Shown here in pieces: positions 2,556 through 14,500 of a stretch of 34,415 nt of DNA. The stretch is taken from positions 97,133 through 131,547 of the forward strand of contig NW_003112481.1 in NCBI RefSeq assembly GCF_000003605.2, written 5' to 3'. Every line of letters begins with the position of its first letter. Positions within the stretch are counted from its first letter, which is position 1. This DNA comes from Saccoglossus kowalevskii. Taxonomy: Eukaryota; Hemichordata; Enteropneusta; Harrimaniidae. Below the pieces are notes generated by a model. That model made no database searches. It was given only the letters and a program-made list of their open reading frames with translations, and had not been told where the DNA came from. The translations under genes and the position numbers were made by a program.

Positions 2556-5500
2556 GTAAGCAAAATTGAATTACTGAATGCAGTCACATTACATTGTACA
2601 TATTTTGCTATTTGTTCTACAGCAGGGTTATATTTCGTACATTGGTGGGTTGGGTTAACAAATATGAACGTCACGACAGTATATGAGAGAACAAGCTACT
2701 AGTATATAGCAACATCGCTATATGAAGGTCGTTGCTGTCCCGTGGAGATTAAAAGTTTATTTTTTGATTTGACATCTACACAATATTACAATAATTTGAT
2801 CCACATTAAACGGTTAATATCAATATAGTATTTGTTATTCAAAAGAAAAAGATTTTAATATTGCTCATTATTTGTGTTTTCGTTCTTGTAATTGGCCTTT
2901 TCTCTATTTTATTTCAGCTGTTCGTGCATATTTCTGTTCGAGCAGGTAAGTGTATACGTTTTGTATATACAATTATTGCCTTATAATGTCTTATAATCTC
3001 TCTATATAATTGCCCAGAAACTATTGCAATTTTAAATAATCTCACTTAAAACTAAACTAATTGCAAGTGTTCTAATAATGCCTTTCAGAGTACAACCTTT
3101 GTTCGAACGCCACTCATGGCCAAGCTTCGATCATCCAACGAACGGATACGAGTAGTTCTGAAAACCAACTCATACTCCTGGACAGTTCCGCTTTCTCGTG
3201 CTATGGTACAGTAGTTGGATGGCGGTTTTGGGCAACCCAGAATACAGTGTTTAAAGTCGGCGTGTGGAGAAGAATGCAAGACGATTATTACTCGTTGGTT
3301 GGAGAAAACAAAATTGTTGTGACAACAACTGGTGAAACAATCGTGCAGCTGCTTGAATTGCAAACGATCCCATTCGCTGATGGAGACGTAATAGGTATGA
3401 GATGGTTTGGCCCTCCGTTTGGGTATGATCTTGGAACAGAGGCTCGGTTAGTTCGCTATGTTGCAATAACTACAGATGATTATTTAGCGGACTGGGAATA
3501 TGGTACGATTAAACACGTCATAAATACTGCTACCAGGGCATATGGAATAGAAGCCCTTGTTGAAAATCAACGTAAGTGTTTTACAATAAGAGTTATTTAG
3601 TTGAAATGTTCCACCGTTATCAGTGTTTGTATATTAACTCGGCATTATTATTGGAATAATCAATTGATGGATTTATTTGCAAGTGATTAAATTAGAAATA
3701 GAAAATAGAATAGACTTGAATTATCTAATCTTGATTCATTTGATTTTAGTTGTGTGTCCAGTGCAAGAATACGGCCAAGAAGTGCGAAATCGAGGAAATG
3801 TTGACGGTGCATCGTTTGCTATGGTGATATGTGGTTTACCGATACCTTGTTATGGTAGGGTCACAGGGTGGAGATTTTTTAGCGCCGCGGATAACGCGTT
3901 TAAAGTCGGAATATACCGTCCGGTCTCTGGGAATGTAGACCAGTTCCGATTGGTCGGCGAAACGCTCATCTCGGCAGATAACCCAATCACCGAGGAAACA
4001 ACAGTGCTTGTCGATGAATTAAATCAGTTTGATTTTCTTCCTGGTGACGTCATCGGTTTCCGATTCGAGTCGTCTGCTTTGTCTTATGAAATAGGTTCAG
4101 TGGACAGTACATTGACGAAATGGGCCATCCATAACAGCTATGAATATTCTAATACCAACGTAGGCGATACATTGACATTCAATGATGGGTCTGAAAACAG
4201 AGCTTATTCAGTTCAAGTTTTGTTTACCCAATATGGTAAGACGCTTCAACACTTTCTAGTACTTCTTCAGTGATTTGCGTACTATTTCAAATTCCAGTTA
4301 TAGTATATAGTGGTGACTTTCTAAAGAAACAACCTGCCAATCGGGTGTATCCGATACATGTATATATATATTGTCACTATGCATTCTTCTGTGTAATGTA
4401 TAACTAGGCTGCAACTATGTGAAAATGTACAATACGTTGTTTAGGTGGTATTTATTTACTGCTATATAATCTATTTAACATCAGATTATTATGGTTGTCA
4501 CAATGATGAGCCGAATAATCGCGAGTTTGCTAGATCGGCTGCAAAATACGACCACCAAAAGATAACTCCTGGTATATGCATCGAACTGTGCGGCGAACGA
4601 GGTTTCTAGTAAGTCCCGTCTCATATTTAGTTATACATATGTATCTATATCACTGGAATATTGTTGTGGACATTGAGAAATGCTGCAGTAAGTTGTAAAA
4701 TTTTCAGTGTAACTATGTTATTTGAGAGCATTTTAGTTTCACTGTGAGATTGTGTTCGTAACTATAATATACTATTAAATTCATCATACTATTAATTGGT
4801 TGAATGCATTTAGTGGTAATATGATACACAATACAGAACGTCATGTAGTGAGTTTTGTTCTGTTTATTCAGGTGCCTATTTTTAAGATCTATACATTTGG
4901 AAACCCCAATTACGTGTAAAATGATTTGAGCAATACTTGGCCATTATTTCAATTCCCCGTCCCGTAAAACAGAATACAAAACATACTCATTAAAGCATTT
5001 GCGTTCATGCGTATCTCAATGATTGGAGACGATATATTGTATATATATATATATATATATGTATATAAAATAGCTTTGGGTCTGTACCACGTAGTATTGT
5101 ACTGGGCAAAAAGCTTTCGCGAACAAAAAGGAGTAAAATACTGTATTTACAATCTTTTATGTCACATGGCATAATTCACCTCGTCTTAAATTATTCAAAT
5201 TCATTTGTAAATTTTGAATTATTGTATCCATCAGAGTCAAGCTAGCCCATTTGAATGAAATTTCGTCTTTTGCGTTCACAAATTTTGCATTCACCATCCA
5301 AATATTTCCTAAAACCAGGTATGCATATTTATGTTATTTATATTGACAATTGTTGATTGAACTGAATTTTTAAAATCAATTCATTCGCGCAAATAATCTG
5401 AATGTTTTTTTTTTCGGAATGTTACAGTTATGCTGGGGTACAACAAGGTGAACTGTGTTTCTGTTCCAATACATACGGTACCCACCGTAACGCCGATCCA

Positions 5501-8500
5501 ACTTATTGTGATCATCCGTGTTCTGGTGACAGGGAAACCACATGTGGAGGTGAACTGTATAATGACGTGTTCAAGACAGCTGAATTATTGAGTGGATTCG
5601 AAATTATTGCATATGATGGCAAGTATCTTAAACGTGTTTAGGTATATTATGTCAACTTCAAGAGATTTTAAACCCGATCATTCATATTGATTGTTTAGAA
5701 CCCATTTCCCTTCTTTGACCATATGTGCAAAATTATTCATCTAGATGAGGAACGTCGCCATGAAGATTTCTATACATATCACTTGAAACAAGTTATGTTC
5801 ACTAAATTTAAATAGAACAGCATGATCAATTACTAATAATATAGTTTATGCAATATATTATAATCGGTAATTATGAATGAGTATTGTGTTGCAATAATGG
5901 ATTGGGCTGTTTTAACTTAATGAACATACGCGAGAAATGCTTTTTGAATTGAATTTCGTTATCACAAATTACTTTCTTTCAAAAATTTTTAAAAATTCCA
6001 AATATTACCAATATTTTGAAATTCAGTAAAACATTAAATGTTTTTACTACCACTTATCCCTTGGTTTTGAAGTGTTGTTACATAGTAGAATATTATTGTA
6101 TTATGTTTATTTTGCACCATAGCAACAGTCTCGTGACGCTCACAGACGTGCCTTATTAAAGTTCATAATATCAAATGTTTCTTCTTGACAGCAAACAAAT
6201 AATATTGAATTTAATATTGATCATTTTTCAGACGAAATATCGTTATTGATTTATTATAATCAACCTAGCTTTATACGGCAGGACAATGTACACAGAACCT
6301 CGTGAGGATGTAATCATCACTTCTATTCACTGTAAATAACTAATAGATACAAAACAGGAAAAGCACTATTATTTTAATCAATAATATTATTTTCAATATT
6401 AAATATCAGTTGCACTTTTTTTAATAATCAATACAACAATGAACATATGACATAGCGGGATCGATATTTGTCTTGCGAAACACGTACCAGTTTTGTTGTT
6501 GTGCTGTGATGTACTCTGTTATGTTGTGCCGTTTTATACGATTAGACGATTGCCGTGTAGTCAAGGGAAGTACACCGAATGCTGCTGACACAATACTTGT
6601 AAGCCCCATTTACTTTTCCATAAACATATAGCGTTTTATAAAATATGAAATCGAACATAATTTATTGCCCAGCCTTGTAAGCAATCACGGTCAGCAATTG
6701 ACCATAAGTATGATGCAGTGTCATTTATCTTGGATCTTGCCCTGGGTCATACGTCTTTGGTTTAGAGCGTCATTTTGACGAATTCGTCTGTTTGTGTGTT
6801 CCACTTTAGTCTCGGTTCGATCTGGGCCAATGTTCTAAAACCACAGCCCAGACTATTGGACTAGCAACTTGTTTTTTTTTAATTTGTATTTGCAATAATG
6901 AAACAACATAACGTACATTTTGTTTTCACACATCTCCGTTGATAGAGTCATGATTTAGTTAAATGAAATTCTCAAAATTAACTGAATTTTCAACGCGTTT
7001 TCCAACTTAGTCAGTGCATATTAGGGTATCTCGGATATCTCGGGTACAAAATATAATAAAAAGGTTAAAACTATGATCATTTCAATAATGTGTGCATAGA
7101 TCGCATACAAGGGTAACACGTCAAACAAAACGAACGAACCCAAAGAAAGCCATGGAACAAGGACTATTCAAGTGAAGTACCAGCACTATATACACTCTAC
7201 TGCTGTCACTGGTCTCGGCCCTCTACTTTTCTTGATGGCCTATTTTTTCCTTTTCCCTATTTTCTTGCTGACAACTGCACAAGGGTCAATCGCGCCTAAT
7301 ACCAGATAAACTTGCTTGAGGCAATATCACACAGTATCTCTGGTATTGGACGCAAACAATCTCTAATATCAAATCTCTAAATATTATTTTTTTGTTTCGA
7401 TAGGTTTAATTAGTACTTATGACAACACAAGTATCCAGGTGAATGAAACACGTGGTGAAGACATCTCGTACAACTTAGATTTAAGCGATGGTTATTCTAT
7501 TGGTCCTACCAGTGAAGACACTGTATATCACGTATTCAAGTAGGTTGTACTTAAGTTTATATTCACAGTACATCATATAAATATACACCACCACTCAGTT
7601 CATGTTGTGAAGTTGTGTTCATAACGATAATATATGACAAGGTTTCAACTATTAATATCTATCATACTATTAATTGGTTGCATGCATTTAATGGTAATAT
7701 GATAAACAATAAAGAACTTCATGCGGTGATTTTTGTTCTGTTAAACTGTGAATTAAATGTACTAGATGTGACTCCAACTACGTGACAAATGCGTCAATGC
7801 AGTTTTTAAGAAAGTTATAAGATATTCATATATCGTTGGTCACTTAACTGATATTTGACATATTTTTTCCAAAACAAATTGTCGTCTTTGTTGCGGAATG
7901 AAGAAATGTACTAACTGAGCCAATCCAGTTATCTCGAGTGAAATTGATTGAAAAACAGTTGGATTTATAAATACGTATAACCATGTCTGTTGATTTTAAT
8001 GTGTATTTTATTACGTCTTATTAGAAAGTGAAGCGGTTTCATTTATCATTATGTAACGTCAATGAATTTACCTTGTAGAAAACCCGGAAAAGCCGCCATT
8101 GAAGCAACGGGAATTGATAAATGGTCAACGGTGGAGGTGGACAGCGTGGCAATAGAAGTAGAAACACCGATTGGAAATATTACCTTTGTGTGTCCATTAT
8201 CTATTGAAGTAAACACAGCGTTCCTTTGTGACATCAAGATAGACCAAGGAACAAACATGTCCGCTAATGTCAATTTTAGTGATGGAAGAATTATTGACAT
8301 GGAGGTTTCTGGTTAGTTTGTTATAAAGTCTCAATTTCCTGTATCCCAAATGTATAACTTTCATAAAAGATAGATTCAAGGTAGCCGGCCTTCAGAGAAG
8401 CGCATTTAGTTAATTTTTATATTTTTCAAATGTTGAGTCGACTCAGTACTCGTTTATTATGCTGAAATACGTTGAATTACAGAGTGAATATGTGTAATCT

Positions 8501-11500
8501 ATAGCATTACATAGCCAGAATTCGCCAGAATCCGCCAAATCATTCTAGATCACTGGAATGTCTTATCAACATGAAAGTATTTTTATTTTCAAGTTACCGA
8601 TGACATGTTTCCTGATAGCATGCTCCCATTAGTTTACTACTGCGATCTTATTTTACACATTTAAGTGAATATATCTGAAACTATTTGCAGATGCTGAGGT
8701 AGTTTGGTATGGGGACCTAGATGAACCTGATATTACGCTCAACAACCAACCAGCAAATACAATATTCCTTCTAGTAAACCAACTTATAAAAGAGGATGGA
8801 AAACTGGTGGGATGGGAGATAAACGCCATAGCCACAGGCAACGTCTATTTACAGGTAGTGTAATTTCAATAACTCAGTGAATTATATTGTTTCACTTTTA
8901 CATTAGTGGCTCTCTTCACTTCATTGTGATGTTGTTGTGATCTATTGTCTGAAGCGTAAAATAGAGGTATTAATAATACTATAATATAAAAATATTTATA
9001 TTTGATTATTTCGTATAGTTAGTGAATTTATTCAAAGTATTGTCTGAAGTGCACTGTATTGATGCCTATGTCTGACGTGTACATTGGTGGTGTTCATATT
9101 CGATTGTTTGGCTTTCACATCAGTTATACTTATGTTCTATTGTCTGACGTACACATTAGAAGTGCTCATATTCGACTCAGTTAAGTGTACTATAGTGTCG
9201 GTAATATCCGATTTTATTGCGTGTACATTGGGGGGGAGTAATAGATTGTATGACTTTTACATCAGTGTACCTCAAAATATATTGTCTGACATTTACGTTA
9301 TTGGTACTCATATTTCATTGTCTGACGTGTACAATTTCACTTCTTTTTAGGTGTATCGACCAAACTGCCCTACAAATTTACAATTCTGTTACAGAACACA
9401 CAGTTGCATTCCCGTGGGAACCACGTGTAAAAACTTGACAGATTTCTGGTCTAAATCTTGCGATTCGGTCGGGCATTTTAGTTTTAGTAAAAGAAAATGT
9501 GTGAAGTCCAGTGACAATTCACTAGTTAACGACAAGATCTTCAGCAACCAACCCGTGGATTACAAAGGCATATCCGTGTTTGAGTATAATATTGAATCAA
9601 CTGGTAAGCAATACATTGCATTGGCTCAGATCAACCAGATTGCAGTACAGCAAGGTGATGTCATTGCGTGGTACAACAGCAACGAAGGACAGATTGGATA
9701 CGTCTCCGCGGATCCATCGAAAGATGGGCCTGAGTTTCTACTAAGTAGCTCAAGTCAGGATCTCCGAAACGCCATTGGTTACACCGCAGTCGCATCTAGC
9801 TCAGTACCTCACGCATATAAACATTCTCTGCGGGCGCACGTTATAAGACCAGCTACAATAAGACTGCTCCACAACTACACAGATGAAAACACACAGCGAC
9901 AAGACATAACTATAAACATCACTAACGATATTTCCTCCAGAATAAAAATACATGAGATGAAAATACAGACTAACATCAACAACTTGGAATTTGTGAATCC
10001 ACAAACAGGTAGGAATTTATCTGCTGCACACCAACTTGTTTGCGGCTTTAATGTCATATGTGGGATATTTGTCTTAATACATTATCTAGACCGCCATTTT
10101 TGTTCATTGTCTCAGCGAATAAATATATAAATAATGATCAACTTGAGTTCTTGATTTGGGTATTGACGATTTTGCACTTTGTGAACCAGATCCAATCATC
10201 CTAAGTTACTGAAATAATCGACAGAATATGTTTTTTTCTCTCCATATTATACTGAACAACTGCGTTTAGAAGTAGTTTTACATACAATTCGTGTTGAATT
10301 CAAGTGTCAAGGCAATCAGAACTTTTATTGCAATTTTAATATTTTGTAGGCATCACAGGCAAAGACGTGAATTTAGAAATATTGGAGCATAGTGGCAGTG
10401 AAGTAATTTACAACTGGTATTTTGGTAATGGTGACTTTAATGAAACAAATTACAAATCATTTAACTATACATGGGAGTCTGCCGGTGTTTATACCGTCAC
10501 ATTGTATGCTTATAACGAAATTAGTGATGCATATTTTGTGGTAAGTTATGGGATAACTCAACAATGATTAAGAATTTGAACAGATAAATATATTATCCGG
10601 AGTGTTTAAATATGGGGAATTTAAATGTATTCGTTTGGTACAATGTTTTATTATTTTCATTTTAATACTCTGACAGTCGTGATGGGAAGAGGGCTCTGGC
10701 AGTTCTGTTAAGTTAGGTGTGTAGTGTGCATACTTATTTTGATTGGGTACATTTGGTTGTAATTTGACTTCTAATTTTGATGAGTTATATCTTTAAGTCT
10801 TTTTTTGGATGGAAGTATCTGTTACGGGTGTACTCATGGTTCATTCACGATGGCTGCAATTATGTAGTTTTATAAAGTAATTACAGTTGTATCCTTGCAC
10901 GATTTAAAAAGCACGAATGTAGGGTCCAATTGTCTGTGTGATTCAATTTCCAGAGTAGCAATAACCTTCTTGTGAATTCATCCCTAATGTGTTCATAAAT
11001 AGCTAATATTTCACAAATGCCTAATTGATATATATCGTTCTAATGAATTACCATTAAGAAAGTCGGGAATTTGGTATATCTCATTTATTTCTTGCAAGGA
11101 GAGGTTTAAGTTAGCTATGTTACTGTATTGCGTTGTCTATTCAGAAGTCAGAGTTTTGAGTTCAAGTAAGGTTTTGTATCAAGCCACTTAATTGTCATTG
11201 AATTCAACCTAGGCTTGTATTGTATGACTGTATATATTTATATATCGACATCATTTATCATACATTGAAGTCTGTCGGGTTCAAGTATGCGCTGATATAA
11301 TATATTTATTTTCCCAATCAAATCAGAGAAAATAATTAATCACTGAAAATGGGATCGCATTCAGGTATGAAAATATAATGTGTTGTGTCAAGACTTGAAC
11401 AAATTATATAGTACTGATTACTAAGTTCTGAATATACCTTAATTTAATCCCTAATGAGATACGAGGTCACTGAAAGGGAGATAATTTACATGGTGACCCG

Positions 11501-14500
11501 GCTATTGAGGTCAGTACTGCTAATCAGTTCAATGAAAAGTATCTTTCAAAGAGATAGGGCACATTTTTATCAGAAGATGCTATATGTTAATTAAATTTGC
11601 CATAGGCCTATCTTATTACCAAACGAAATTGGTCTATGGCCAGGGAAAATAAATATGAATGATTTTGGCTGAAATACTTGTATACAAGCATATCCATGGT
11701 ATAAACACTTATGGCAGTATGAATCCTAAAAGACACCTGTATTGTTTCAGTCGTGGATTACGATCCAAGATGACATCAATGAACTCTCATGGAATGACTC
11801 CTCTTTGCTATCACTTCATCCAGAATATCCAATAACACCCAAAGCTCTCGGCGATGAAACTATTCTATCCTGGTGTGTTTCACAAGGTTAGCATTATTTA
11901 ATTCAAATCTAAGTAATCATGTGTGTTCTTGGTATTTGAACATAAATCTAACATTTACGTTTGTCTATTTTAGGTACAAATATAACGTATGAGGTGAACC
12001 TTGATGATTTTGTTTTGATTCTCCTCCCATTTGATGAGGATCCTCTTATAACACCTCTAGGTATCACAGCCTTGCACCATGGTGAGATATATGTTTGTTC
12101 GGTTTTTGTTCGTCAGTCCGTTTACTGTCAATCTATGGTGAACTCNNNNNNNNNNNNNNNNNNNNNNNNNNNNNNNNNNNNNNNNNNNNNNNNNNNNNNN
12201 NNNNNNNNNNNNNNNNNNNNNNNNNNNNNNNNNNNNNNNNNNNNNNNNNNNNNNNNNNNNNNNNNNNNNNNNNNNNNNNNNNNNNNNNNNNNNNNNNNNN
12301 NNNNNNNNNNNNNNNNNNNNNNNNNNNNNNNNNNNNNNNNNNNNNNNNNNNNNNNNNNNNNNNNNNNNNNNNNNNNNNNNNNNNNNNNNNNNNNNNNNNN
12401 NNNNNNNNNNNNNNNNNNNNNNNNNNNNNNNNNNNNNNNNNNNNNNNNNNNNNNNNNNNNNNNNNNNNNNNNNNNNNNNNNNNNNNNNNNNNNNNNNNNN
12501 NNNNNNNNNNNNNNNNNNNNNNNNNNNNNNNNNNNNNNNNNNNNNNNNNNNNNNNNNNNNNNNNNNNNNNNNNNNNNNNNNNNNNNNNNNNNNNNNNNNN
12601 NNNNNNNNNNNNNNNNNNNNNNNNNNNNNNNNNNNNNNNNNNNNNNNNNNNNNNNNNNNNNNNNNNNNNNNNNNNNNNNNNNNNNNNNNNNNNNNNNNNN
12701 NNNNNNNNNNNNNNNNNNNNNNNNNNNNNNNNNNNNNNNNNNNNNNNNNNNNNNNNNNNNNNNNNNNNNNNNNNNNNNNNNNNNNNNNNNNNNNNNNNNN
12801 NNNNNNNNNNNNNNNNNNNNNNNNNNNNNNNNNNNNNNNNNNNNNNNNNNNNNAAGTCGGCCCGTTTACTGTCAATCTATGGTGAACTGTTCGTCTTACA
12901 AGTCGGCCCGTTTACTGTCAATCTATGGTGAACTGTTCGTCTTACAAGTCGGCCCGTTTACTGTCAATCTATGGCGAACTCTTCGTCTTACAAGTCAGTC
13001 CGTTTACTGTCAATCTGTGGTGAACTCTTCGTTATACAAGTCAGTCCGTTTGCTGTCAATCTAGTTTAATTTGGGGGGAATTGTCAAATAAGCCTTAAAT
13101 GCAATTAGCCACATTTTTATCAACACATTTCGTGTTTGAAAACTCACTAAAAATACTGGAAATTACGTAATTTTTCTAGACTTGTGATACTCTATATATC
13201 ATTGTTTCATACTTTACTCATATTAAAATAAAACAATGGAAAAATGCTCAAAAACAAAAAACATGCTATTTTCACTTCAATGCGTACGGTGATCCAATTA
13301 TTTATTTCATTTTTTTGTATGTAAAATAAAGAAAATGACATTTTCTTATTTGAATAACATTCTACTATAATACTACAATGAATTTCTGATTACAGGTCTA
13401 TCAGGAAGTGTAAGATATACATACCCATCCATTGGCTATTACAATATCTCAGTAAATGCGTCTAATCTAGTAAGCAGTAAAATAATCTACGGGATGGCTA
13501 TTGTTCAGTTACCAATCACCAACTTCAGACTTTCAGATCCTGGACCCATTGCCCATGGAGAGGAGGAGCCGATCTTTTTATTCGTGGACACTGGCACAAA
13601 CATGACATTTAACGGAACATTTAATCAAGTTTCTATTGGAAAGGAAGACTTTTTCTTTAATGAAGCCATGCATGAGGGTTATGCAATGATTACTCCTGAT
13701 AAATACACAATAAGAGGAATACTACCGTTCAGTGTCACGGCTGTAAATCTTGTCAGTGGACCTTTCGTTTACAACCTTGATATTCACGTTGAGTATCCTG
13801 TAAGAGATTTAAGAATATGGACTGATGATCCTGATGTTGAACCAAACACAGTGGTGACTGTAACTTTCGACATGCTTTGTGGAACTGGACTTACCCTGAC
13901 TCTTGATTATGATGACAACAATGTGGTTTACACAGCTGATCAAATGTTTCGATCAAACAATGATTCCATGTCACAGTTAAAATTGTGGCCATTCGCCAAA
14001 GAGTATAATGTAACTATTACAGCCGAAAATGTGTTGGGGATTTGGCAAGCAAGTACCATTGAATATGTTCAGAACCCTGTTCGAGATATCGTTATTTCTA
14101 CCAACACACCGGGGATAATACCCTGGAATTCTAATGGGACTATAACATATACGTGGACGTTTAATGGACTGAACGTACCGTCGAGTGTGAGTGCACATTA
14201 TTTCATAGCTATTGGAATTGAGTTCGATTTTGAACTACCATTTGACACAACAGGACTAACCACAATATCTCATGATGTATCGTTGGCAAAATATGGCACA
14301 TATTATACGCAAATAACACTTGCCAACCGAATCAACTCCATGATGTTTGAGTCAACAATTGACATGGAAGAACCTGTTGAAAATGTTACGTTTCAAATTA
14401 ACCATGATCAACCCTATTTGGAAGTCGGAGAAACAATTGAAGCAACAGTTATGTTCTCCTGGGGATCTCGTGTATCATTCTATTGGGACTTTGGTGATGG

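Follow-up and report, generated by a model that had tools for sequence, protein, structure and literature searches.

Polycystin-1 is the product of the principal gene of dominant polycystic kidney disease, and descriptions of its N-terminal part give a string of LRR, WSC, PKD, lectin and LDL-A domains. In three papers (PMC10487028, PMC3677617 and PMC12833057) LDL-A is listed as one item in this domain string; a search of the open-access literature gave no treatment of LDL-A as an insertion or an interrupted domain, which may still be published. A polycystin-like gene of Saccoglossus kowalevskii raises the question of whether the LDL-A-like stretch is a domain of its own or a loop within a larger one. 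The window, i.e. the whole stretch of 34,415 nucleotides that was analysed, is C653:97133-131547 in an assembly of 572 Mb and 4,830 contigs.

Gene layout and the uninterrupted module

Exons 1-11 splice to an open frame of 908 amino acids without stops. A Pfam search of this protein found a WSC domain and PKD repeats, and an NCBIfam search gave nothing at E up to 1. Downstream of the PKD repeats, where the exons were searched by Pfam as single ORFs and not as a spliced gene, REJ (1.1e-26), PLAT (1.4e-14) and PKD_channel (5.2e-15, 6.7e-15 and 2.3e-10) were found, i.e. the REJ, PLAT and polycystin channel domains by which membership of the PKD1 (polycystin-1) family is judged. Given the WSC domain and the PKD repeats together with these downstream domains, the window gene is, by its predicted protein, a member of the PKD1 family. 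The features on which the argument rests are the following:

3089..3571, + strand: exon 3, uninterrupted module, copy 1 (flanking introns both phase 1; score against exon 4)
3750..4235, + strand: exon 4, uninterrupted module, copy 2 (flanking introns both phase 1; 29% identity to exon 3)
4485..5618, + strand: WSC domain in two exons, 4485-4608 and 5428-5618 (Pfam PF01822, E 1e-16)
8691..8854, + strand: exon 9, with the module's front half from ~8756 (NTIFLL...VGWEI...VYLQ; match to profile 22-69)
9351..9362, + strand: VYRP, end of the front half, first codons of exon 10 (sequence and profile alignment)
9363..9554, + strand: insert of ~64 residues, a six-cysteine stretch and a cysteine-free linker of ~18 residues (sequence; profile alignment)
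9555..9671, + strand: back core of the module (VDYKGISVFEYNIESTGKQYIALAQINQIAVQQGDVIAW; match to profile 83-107)
9672..9857, + strand: presumed last third of the module, to HVIRPAT (placed by position)
9858..10008, + strand: remainder of exon 10, ~50 residues leading to the following PKD repeat (exon end in phase 1)

The intron after 5618, 3' of the second WSC exon, has a GC donor (GCAAGT).

One module is present twice, in exons 3 and 4, whose local alignment score of 163 was reached by 0 of 2000 shuffles. Pfam assigned no family to exons 3, 4, 9 and 10; a single DUF348 row for exon 3 (E 0.12) lay below the cut-off of that family. A PDB sequence search revealed no relative (the rows shown had E-values of 0.35 or more), and a PDB search with the PKD/REJ exon gave no polycystin-1 chain and one row with E 0.1. 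Relatives were not confirmed in the collections of viral contigs and genome contigs and were not found in plasmids; two phage rows (E 0.7) were taken as chance.

When exon 4 was searched against the genome by tblastn, a further uninterrupted copy, the third, was located on contig C449 (E 2.1e-6), and an HMM, m3, was made from these first three modules (exon 3, exon 4 and C449). With exon 3 as query, tblastn gave copies on C1938 (1.4e-6), C561 (0.014) and C3325 (0.15), all of which were confirmed by m3 (E 1.4e-11, 1.3e-9 and 3.5e-8, respectively); together with the m3 modules they make up a second HMM, m6. A seventh, weaker copy on C1468 (E 0.006 and 0.009) was left out of m3 and m6 and entered one block alignment only, in the search for a third interrupted copy. 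A match of the C449 module on C1005 was dropped (E 0.25, one stop). In C1938, C561, C3325 and C1468 the open frame stops shortly past the G-D-V-I block and, therefore, only three copies show the C-terminal third; in the stretches of the first three of these contigs (L014, L015 and L016) the block at the frame end reads G-D-x-I/L-G (or N-D-F-I-G). On these same three stretches Pfam found a CUB domain; the neighbours of the C449 copy (L004, C449:40000-49990) include farnesoic-acid-methyltransferase-like and F5/8-type domains. We infer that the module and its neighbouring CUB, F5/8 or farnesoic-acid-methyltransferase-like domains form single genes. A preliminary description of the window had proposed that no genes but those of this kind keep the uninterrupted form; this was not borne out, since at least four further contigs carry copies close to other extracellular domains. 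By eye, a sushi-like ORF was also seen near the C449 module.

Exons 9 and 10 compared with the module

The same description placed V-G-W-E-I, V-Y-L-Q-V-Y-R-P, six cysteines and Q-G-D-V-I-A-W-Y in exons 9 and 10, and all of them were found there. Exon 9 is entered in phase 1 and ends in phase 0, exon 10 extends from 9351 to 10008, and the outer introns of the interrupted unit, read by hand from the gene model, are in phase 1 as in exons 3 and 4. A front block with W and V-x-R-P followed by a G-D-V-I block, the pattern of the exon 3/4 module, is present in exons 9-10; the module itself differs in that it has no cysteine insert and that further copies lie on contigs where CUB, F5/8 and farnesoic-acid-methyltransferase-like domains occur. 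In pairwise comparisons with 2000 shuffles each, the score of the front was reached by 11 shuffles against exon 4 and by 103 against exon 3, that of the back by 1 against exon 3 and by 425 against exon 4, and that of the whole unit by 10 against exon 3 and by 83 against exon 4. These scores are modest (for two half-module pairs out of four, over 100 shuffles did as well) and would also suit an arrangement in which two small separate domains flank an independent LDL-A-like domain and the likeness to exons 3 and 4 stems from convergence on a beta-strand pattern (W, R-P, G-D-V-I). Since the single pairwise likenesses were weak, profiles were built.

On the 908-aa protein, m3 matched exon 9 with profile positions 22-69 (iE 1.3e-4) and exon 10 with positions 83-107 (iE 0.002). 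The two matches have the same order as in the profile, are complementary and do not overlap. That the end of exon 9 resembles the front half of the module was thus borne out; of the back of exon 10, for which the same had been claimed, the Q-G-D-V-I-A-W-Y block matched, but a resemblance of Q-I-G-Y-V and S-L-R-A-H-V-I was not demonstrated. Among 794 fragments (six-frame translations of the window of at least 25 residues) exons 9 and 10 ranked directly behind the two training exons, 3 and 4, with either HMM: m3 had exon 9 at rank 3 (E 0.087) and exon 10 at rank 4 (E 0.15), m6 had exon 10 at rank 3 (E 0.0034) and exon 9 at rank 4 (E 0.061), and the next window fragment followed at E 0.45 in the m6 search.

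A local profile alignment in which a long insertion is allowed at fixed cost gave exons 9-10 a score of 40.8 with m3, which none of 5000 shuffles reached (mean 18.9), the best of them coming close with 40.3; as controls, the PKD/REJ exon was cut into 15 overlapping stretches, which scored 16.0-20.0. With m6 the score was 31.9 and 1 of 5000 shuffles reached it. The C-terminal part (Q-I-G-Y-V, S-L-R-A-H-V-I) fared differently: its score was reached by 33 of 2000 shuffles against exon 3 and by 1838 of 2000 each against exon 4 and the C449 copy. The module boundary had been put at R-P on both sides of the insert, which holds for the front, but the back half resumes ~18 residues past the last cysteine.

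A second interrupted copy and the profile-profile comparison

A search of the genome for REJ gave 33 matches (E up to 0.01) on 13 contigs, including the window's own. To look for further interrupted copies, the upstream 20 kb were read at C3470 and likewise at C1217, along with one stretch from each of three other REJ contigs. At C3470 an LRRCT-like exon (Pfam E 0.0027, below the cut-off) and further leucine-rich ORFs, the latter by eye, were found, along with a stretch that looks WSC-like by eye and in which Pfam gives no WSC at 0.01, and a PKD repeat by Pfam, followed by a front exon, a cysteine-rich stretch and a back exon. The front exon contains G-K-L-L-S-W-E-F and L-H-L-Q-V-Y-T-P, the back exon E-N-D-V-L-G. 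Among 3134 fragments of L023-L056, m6 ranked the C3470 front ORF best (1.2e-4); next came the back ORF at 0.096, which falls short of the inclusion threshold. With exons 9-10 as query the front ORF was matched at 5.2e-5. In the spliced C3470 unit searched alone, profile positions 17-72 (iE 1e-6) and 79-114 (iE 3.7e-5) flank the unit's own cysteines. Its long-gap score with m3 was 38.0, reached by 1 of 5000 shuffles; with m6, 4 of 5000 reached the score. In the window gene as in C3470, the cysteine loop comes after the V-Y-x-P strand; intron positions and cysteine spacing of the two are not the same. The last third of the module was not detected in either interrupted copy.

In L058-L060, parts of the upstream regions of the other three REJ contigs, 313 fragments gave no third interrupted copy (best E 0.18); nor was a convincing module seen in the 20 kb of C1217 (best E 0.94). 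Genome tblastn searches with exon 10 (E up to 1) and with the C3470 front exon each returned the query itself only, and thus exon 10 gave no second copy. At C1217, Pfam found a WSC domain and then PKD repeats in the same frame; this stretch (L055, C1217:290001-300000) appears to be another PKD1-like gene, with LamG-like and kringle-like ORFs, seen by eye, preceding the WSC domain. With 33 REJ matches, this genome seems to have an expanded PKD1 family.

The interrupted copies of the window and C3470 were then aligned to each other, and the resulting pair profile was compared with the HMMs by hhalign. Against m3 a single alignment across the insert was obtained (76.1%, E 2.3e-5). Against m6 the best alignment was confined to the front (71.9%, E 3.4e-5), with a separate second alignment for the back (21.4%, E 0.001), so that only m3 aligns across the insert as long as no human row is included. 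The scores, 39.9 with m3 and 38.6 with m6, were not reached by any of 300 column shuffles of either (maxima 21.9 and 22.5); reversed profiles gave 10.5 and 13.1. As single sequences the window copy scored 32.2 and 30.2 and the C3470 copy 26.9 and 28.9 with m3 and m6, respectively, compared with 10.5-17.4 for 14 other stretches (eight from the PKD/REJ exon, five from C1217 and one WSC-PKD). The profile similarity to exons 3 and 4 that had been put forward as a check is, therefore, significant. These comparisons show, on sequence grounds, that the flanks of the insert are homologous to the module and where in it the insert lies.

That m6 matches front and back as two alignments, and that the detected parts of the module are its front and middle alone, would agree with separate domains around the cysteines. 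This arrangement is nevertheless improbable, since order and complementary profile coordinates recur in two genes and neither the column shuffles nor the PKD, REJ and WSC controls reach the scores. Since the ordered HMMER matches occur in two genes, the odds of an interrupted domain do not depend on the failure of m6 to align across the insert. Exons 9-10 very probably constitute an interrupted domain of the exon 3/4 type, matching its profile in the front and middle strands, and a domain with an inserted six-cysteine loop is the best explanation overall, to which we assign a probability of roughly 0.8. Of the proposed third module copy split by an LDL-A-like insert, the front, the middle and a single internal cysteine site have thus been recovered, the last third has not.

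In the proposed mechanism, exons 9-10 would encode one extracellular domain that has taken up a six-cysteine, LDL-A-like hairpin in the turn following its V-Y-R-P strand. The insertion would predate the split of the window gene and C3470 because C3470 has the same arrangement, an argument from layout. The opposite direction, with the interrupted form as the older one and a loss of the cysteine loop in the uninterrupted modules, could account for the interrupted form in two diverged polycystin-like genes and, presumably, in human PKD1; we consider it unlikely, since the uninterrupted copies occur in several domain settings, which favours these as the general form.

The cysteine insert and the human parallel

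The six cysteines of the insert lie at 9366-9500 with the spacing C6C5C6C10C12C. The insert shares with the LDL-receptor class A domain (Pfam PF00057) the number of six cysteines and an F-C-x5-C-I core, and differs from it in the long gaps between cysteines 4-6 and in the missing Pfam match: in exon 10 Pfam found no family and hence no LDL-A at E up to 5, a search in which the HMMER filters drop most weak matches, and in the two C3470 exons no LDL-A was found at E up to 0.01. The term LDL-A-like, used for the insert before, is thus justified by the cysteine pattern but not by Pfam. An acidic segment, D-x-S-D-E, which we take to be the calcium-binding motif of LDL-A between cysteines 4 and 6, is missing from the insert by eye. 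A true, calcium-binding LDL-A domain might be suspected from the C6C5C6C spacing of the first four cysteines and from the F/W before the second, both as in the presumed human stretch; with no Pfam match, no acidic segment in the second half and a different cysteine spacing in C3470, we regard this as very improbable. Because the D-x-S-D-E segment is missing, the loop of the interrupted domain would be held by disulphides and not by the calcium site of a true LDL-A. The module may be a beta-rich domain that forms an N-terminal, ligand-facing head before the PKD repeats and displays the cysteine-rich loop in the turn between two strands, a role to which we give about even odds. The displayed loop might serve as a binding surface, a tentative guess from its setting among WSC, PKD, CUB and F5/8 domains.

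The preliminary description had also ascribed the same layout to human polycystin-1. Our comparison sequence, 263 residues around LDL-A, is a presumed human sequence and, therefore, the human parallel to the interrupted module is a lead only. In human PKD1 the LDL-A region presumably has L-Q-V-Y-R, a cysteine stretch with C6C5C6C and then a P-G-D-L-V-G block, and we take WSC and PKD to precede and the PKD array to follow it. Exons 9-10 share with this presumed region the order, L-Q-V-Y-R and the C6C5C6C spacing. In local alignment the presumed human row matched the window best over 23 residues of the cysteine stretch (87 of 3000 shuffles did as well); the front match consisted of L-Q-V-Y-R only (396 of 3000) and the back was reached by 61 of 3000. 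Alone, as one sequence, this row was not significant against the HMMs of the uninterrupted modules (m6 E 0.032, m3 E 0.091), and against the profile of the window and C3470 copies it gave 15.4% and E 0.0017. Adding it to the interrupted profile gave 94.5% (E 8.1e-8) with m3 and 95.0% (E 4.1e-8) with m6, with aligned ranges that span the insert in both cases, and none of 300 shuffles reached the m3 score. The claimed human layout thus agrees in order and cysteine spacing, but with a presumed sequence that is not significant alone. According to PMC10487028, human PKD1 has a C-type lectin domain, whereas the 908-aa window protein has no Pfam lectin match.

On balance we favour a reading in which the LDL-A of polycystin-1, the human protein included, would be a disulphide loop inserted in a turn of a mobile extracellular domain that has gone unrecognised, measures ~160 residues when the loop is left out and forms a head before the PKD repeats. 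If this is true, constructs and disease variants that are read by the LDL-A borders bisect a larger domain, and the borders on which constructs, binding studies and the interpretation of missense variants are based would shift; further, an extracellular module family without a Pfam entry would gain a testable fold. The interrupted domain may already be visible in a public AlphaFold model of the human protein.

Apart from the module, alike short stretches were noticed by eye in the ORF list at 12057-12931 of the window, where they flank a 708-base N gap (12146-12853); they are probably part of an unresolved tandem repeat.
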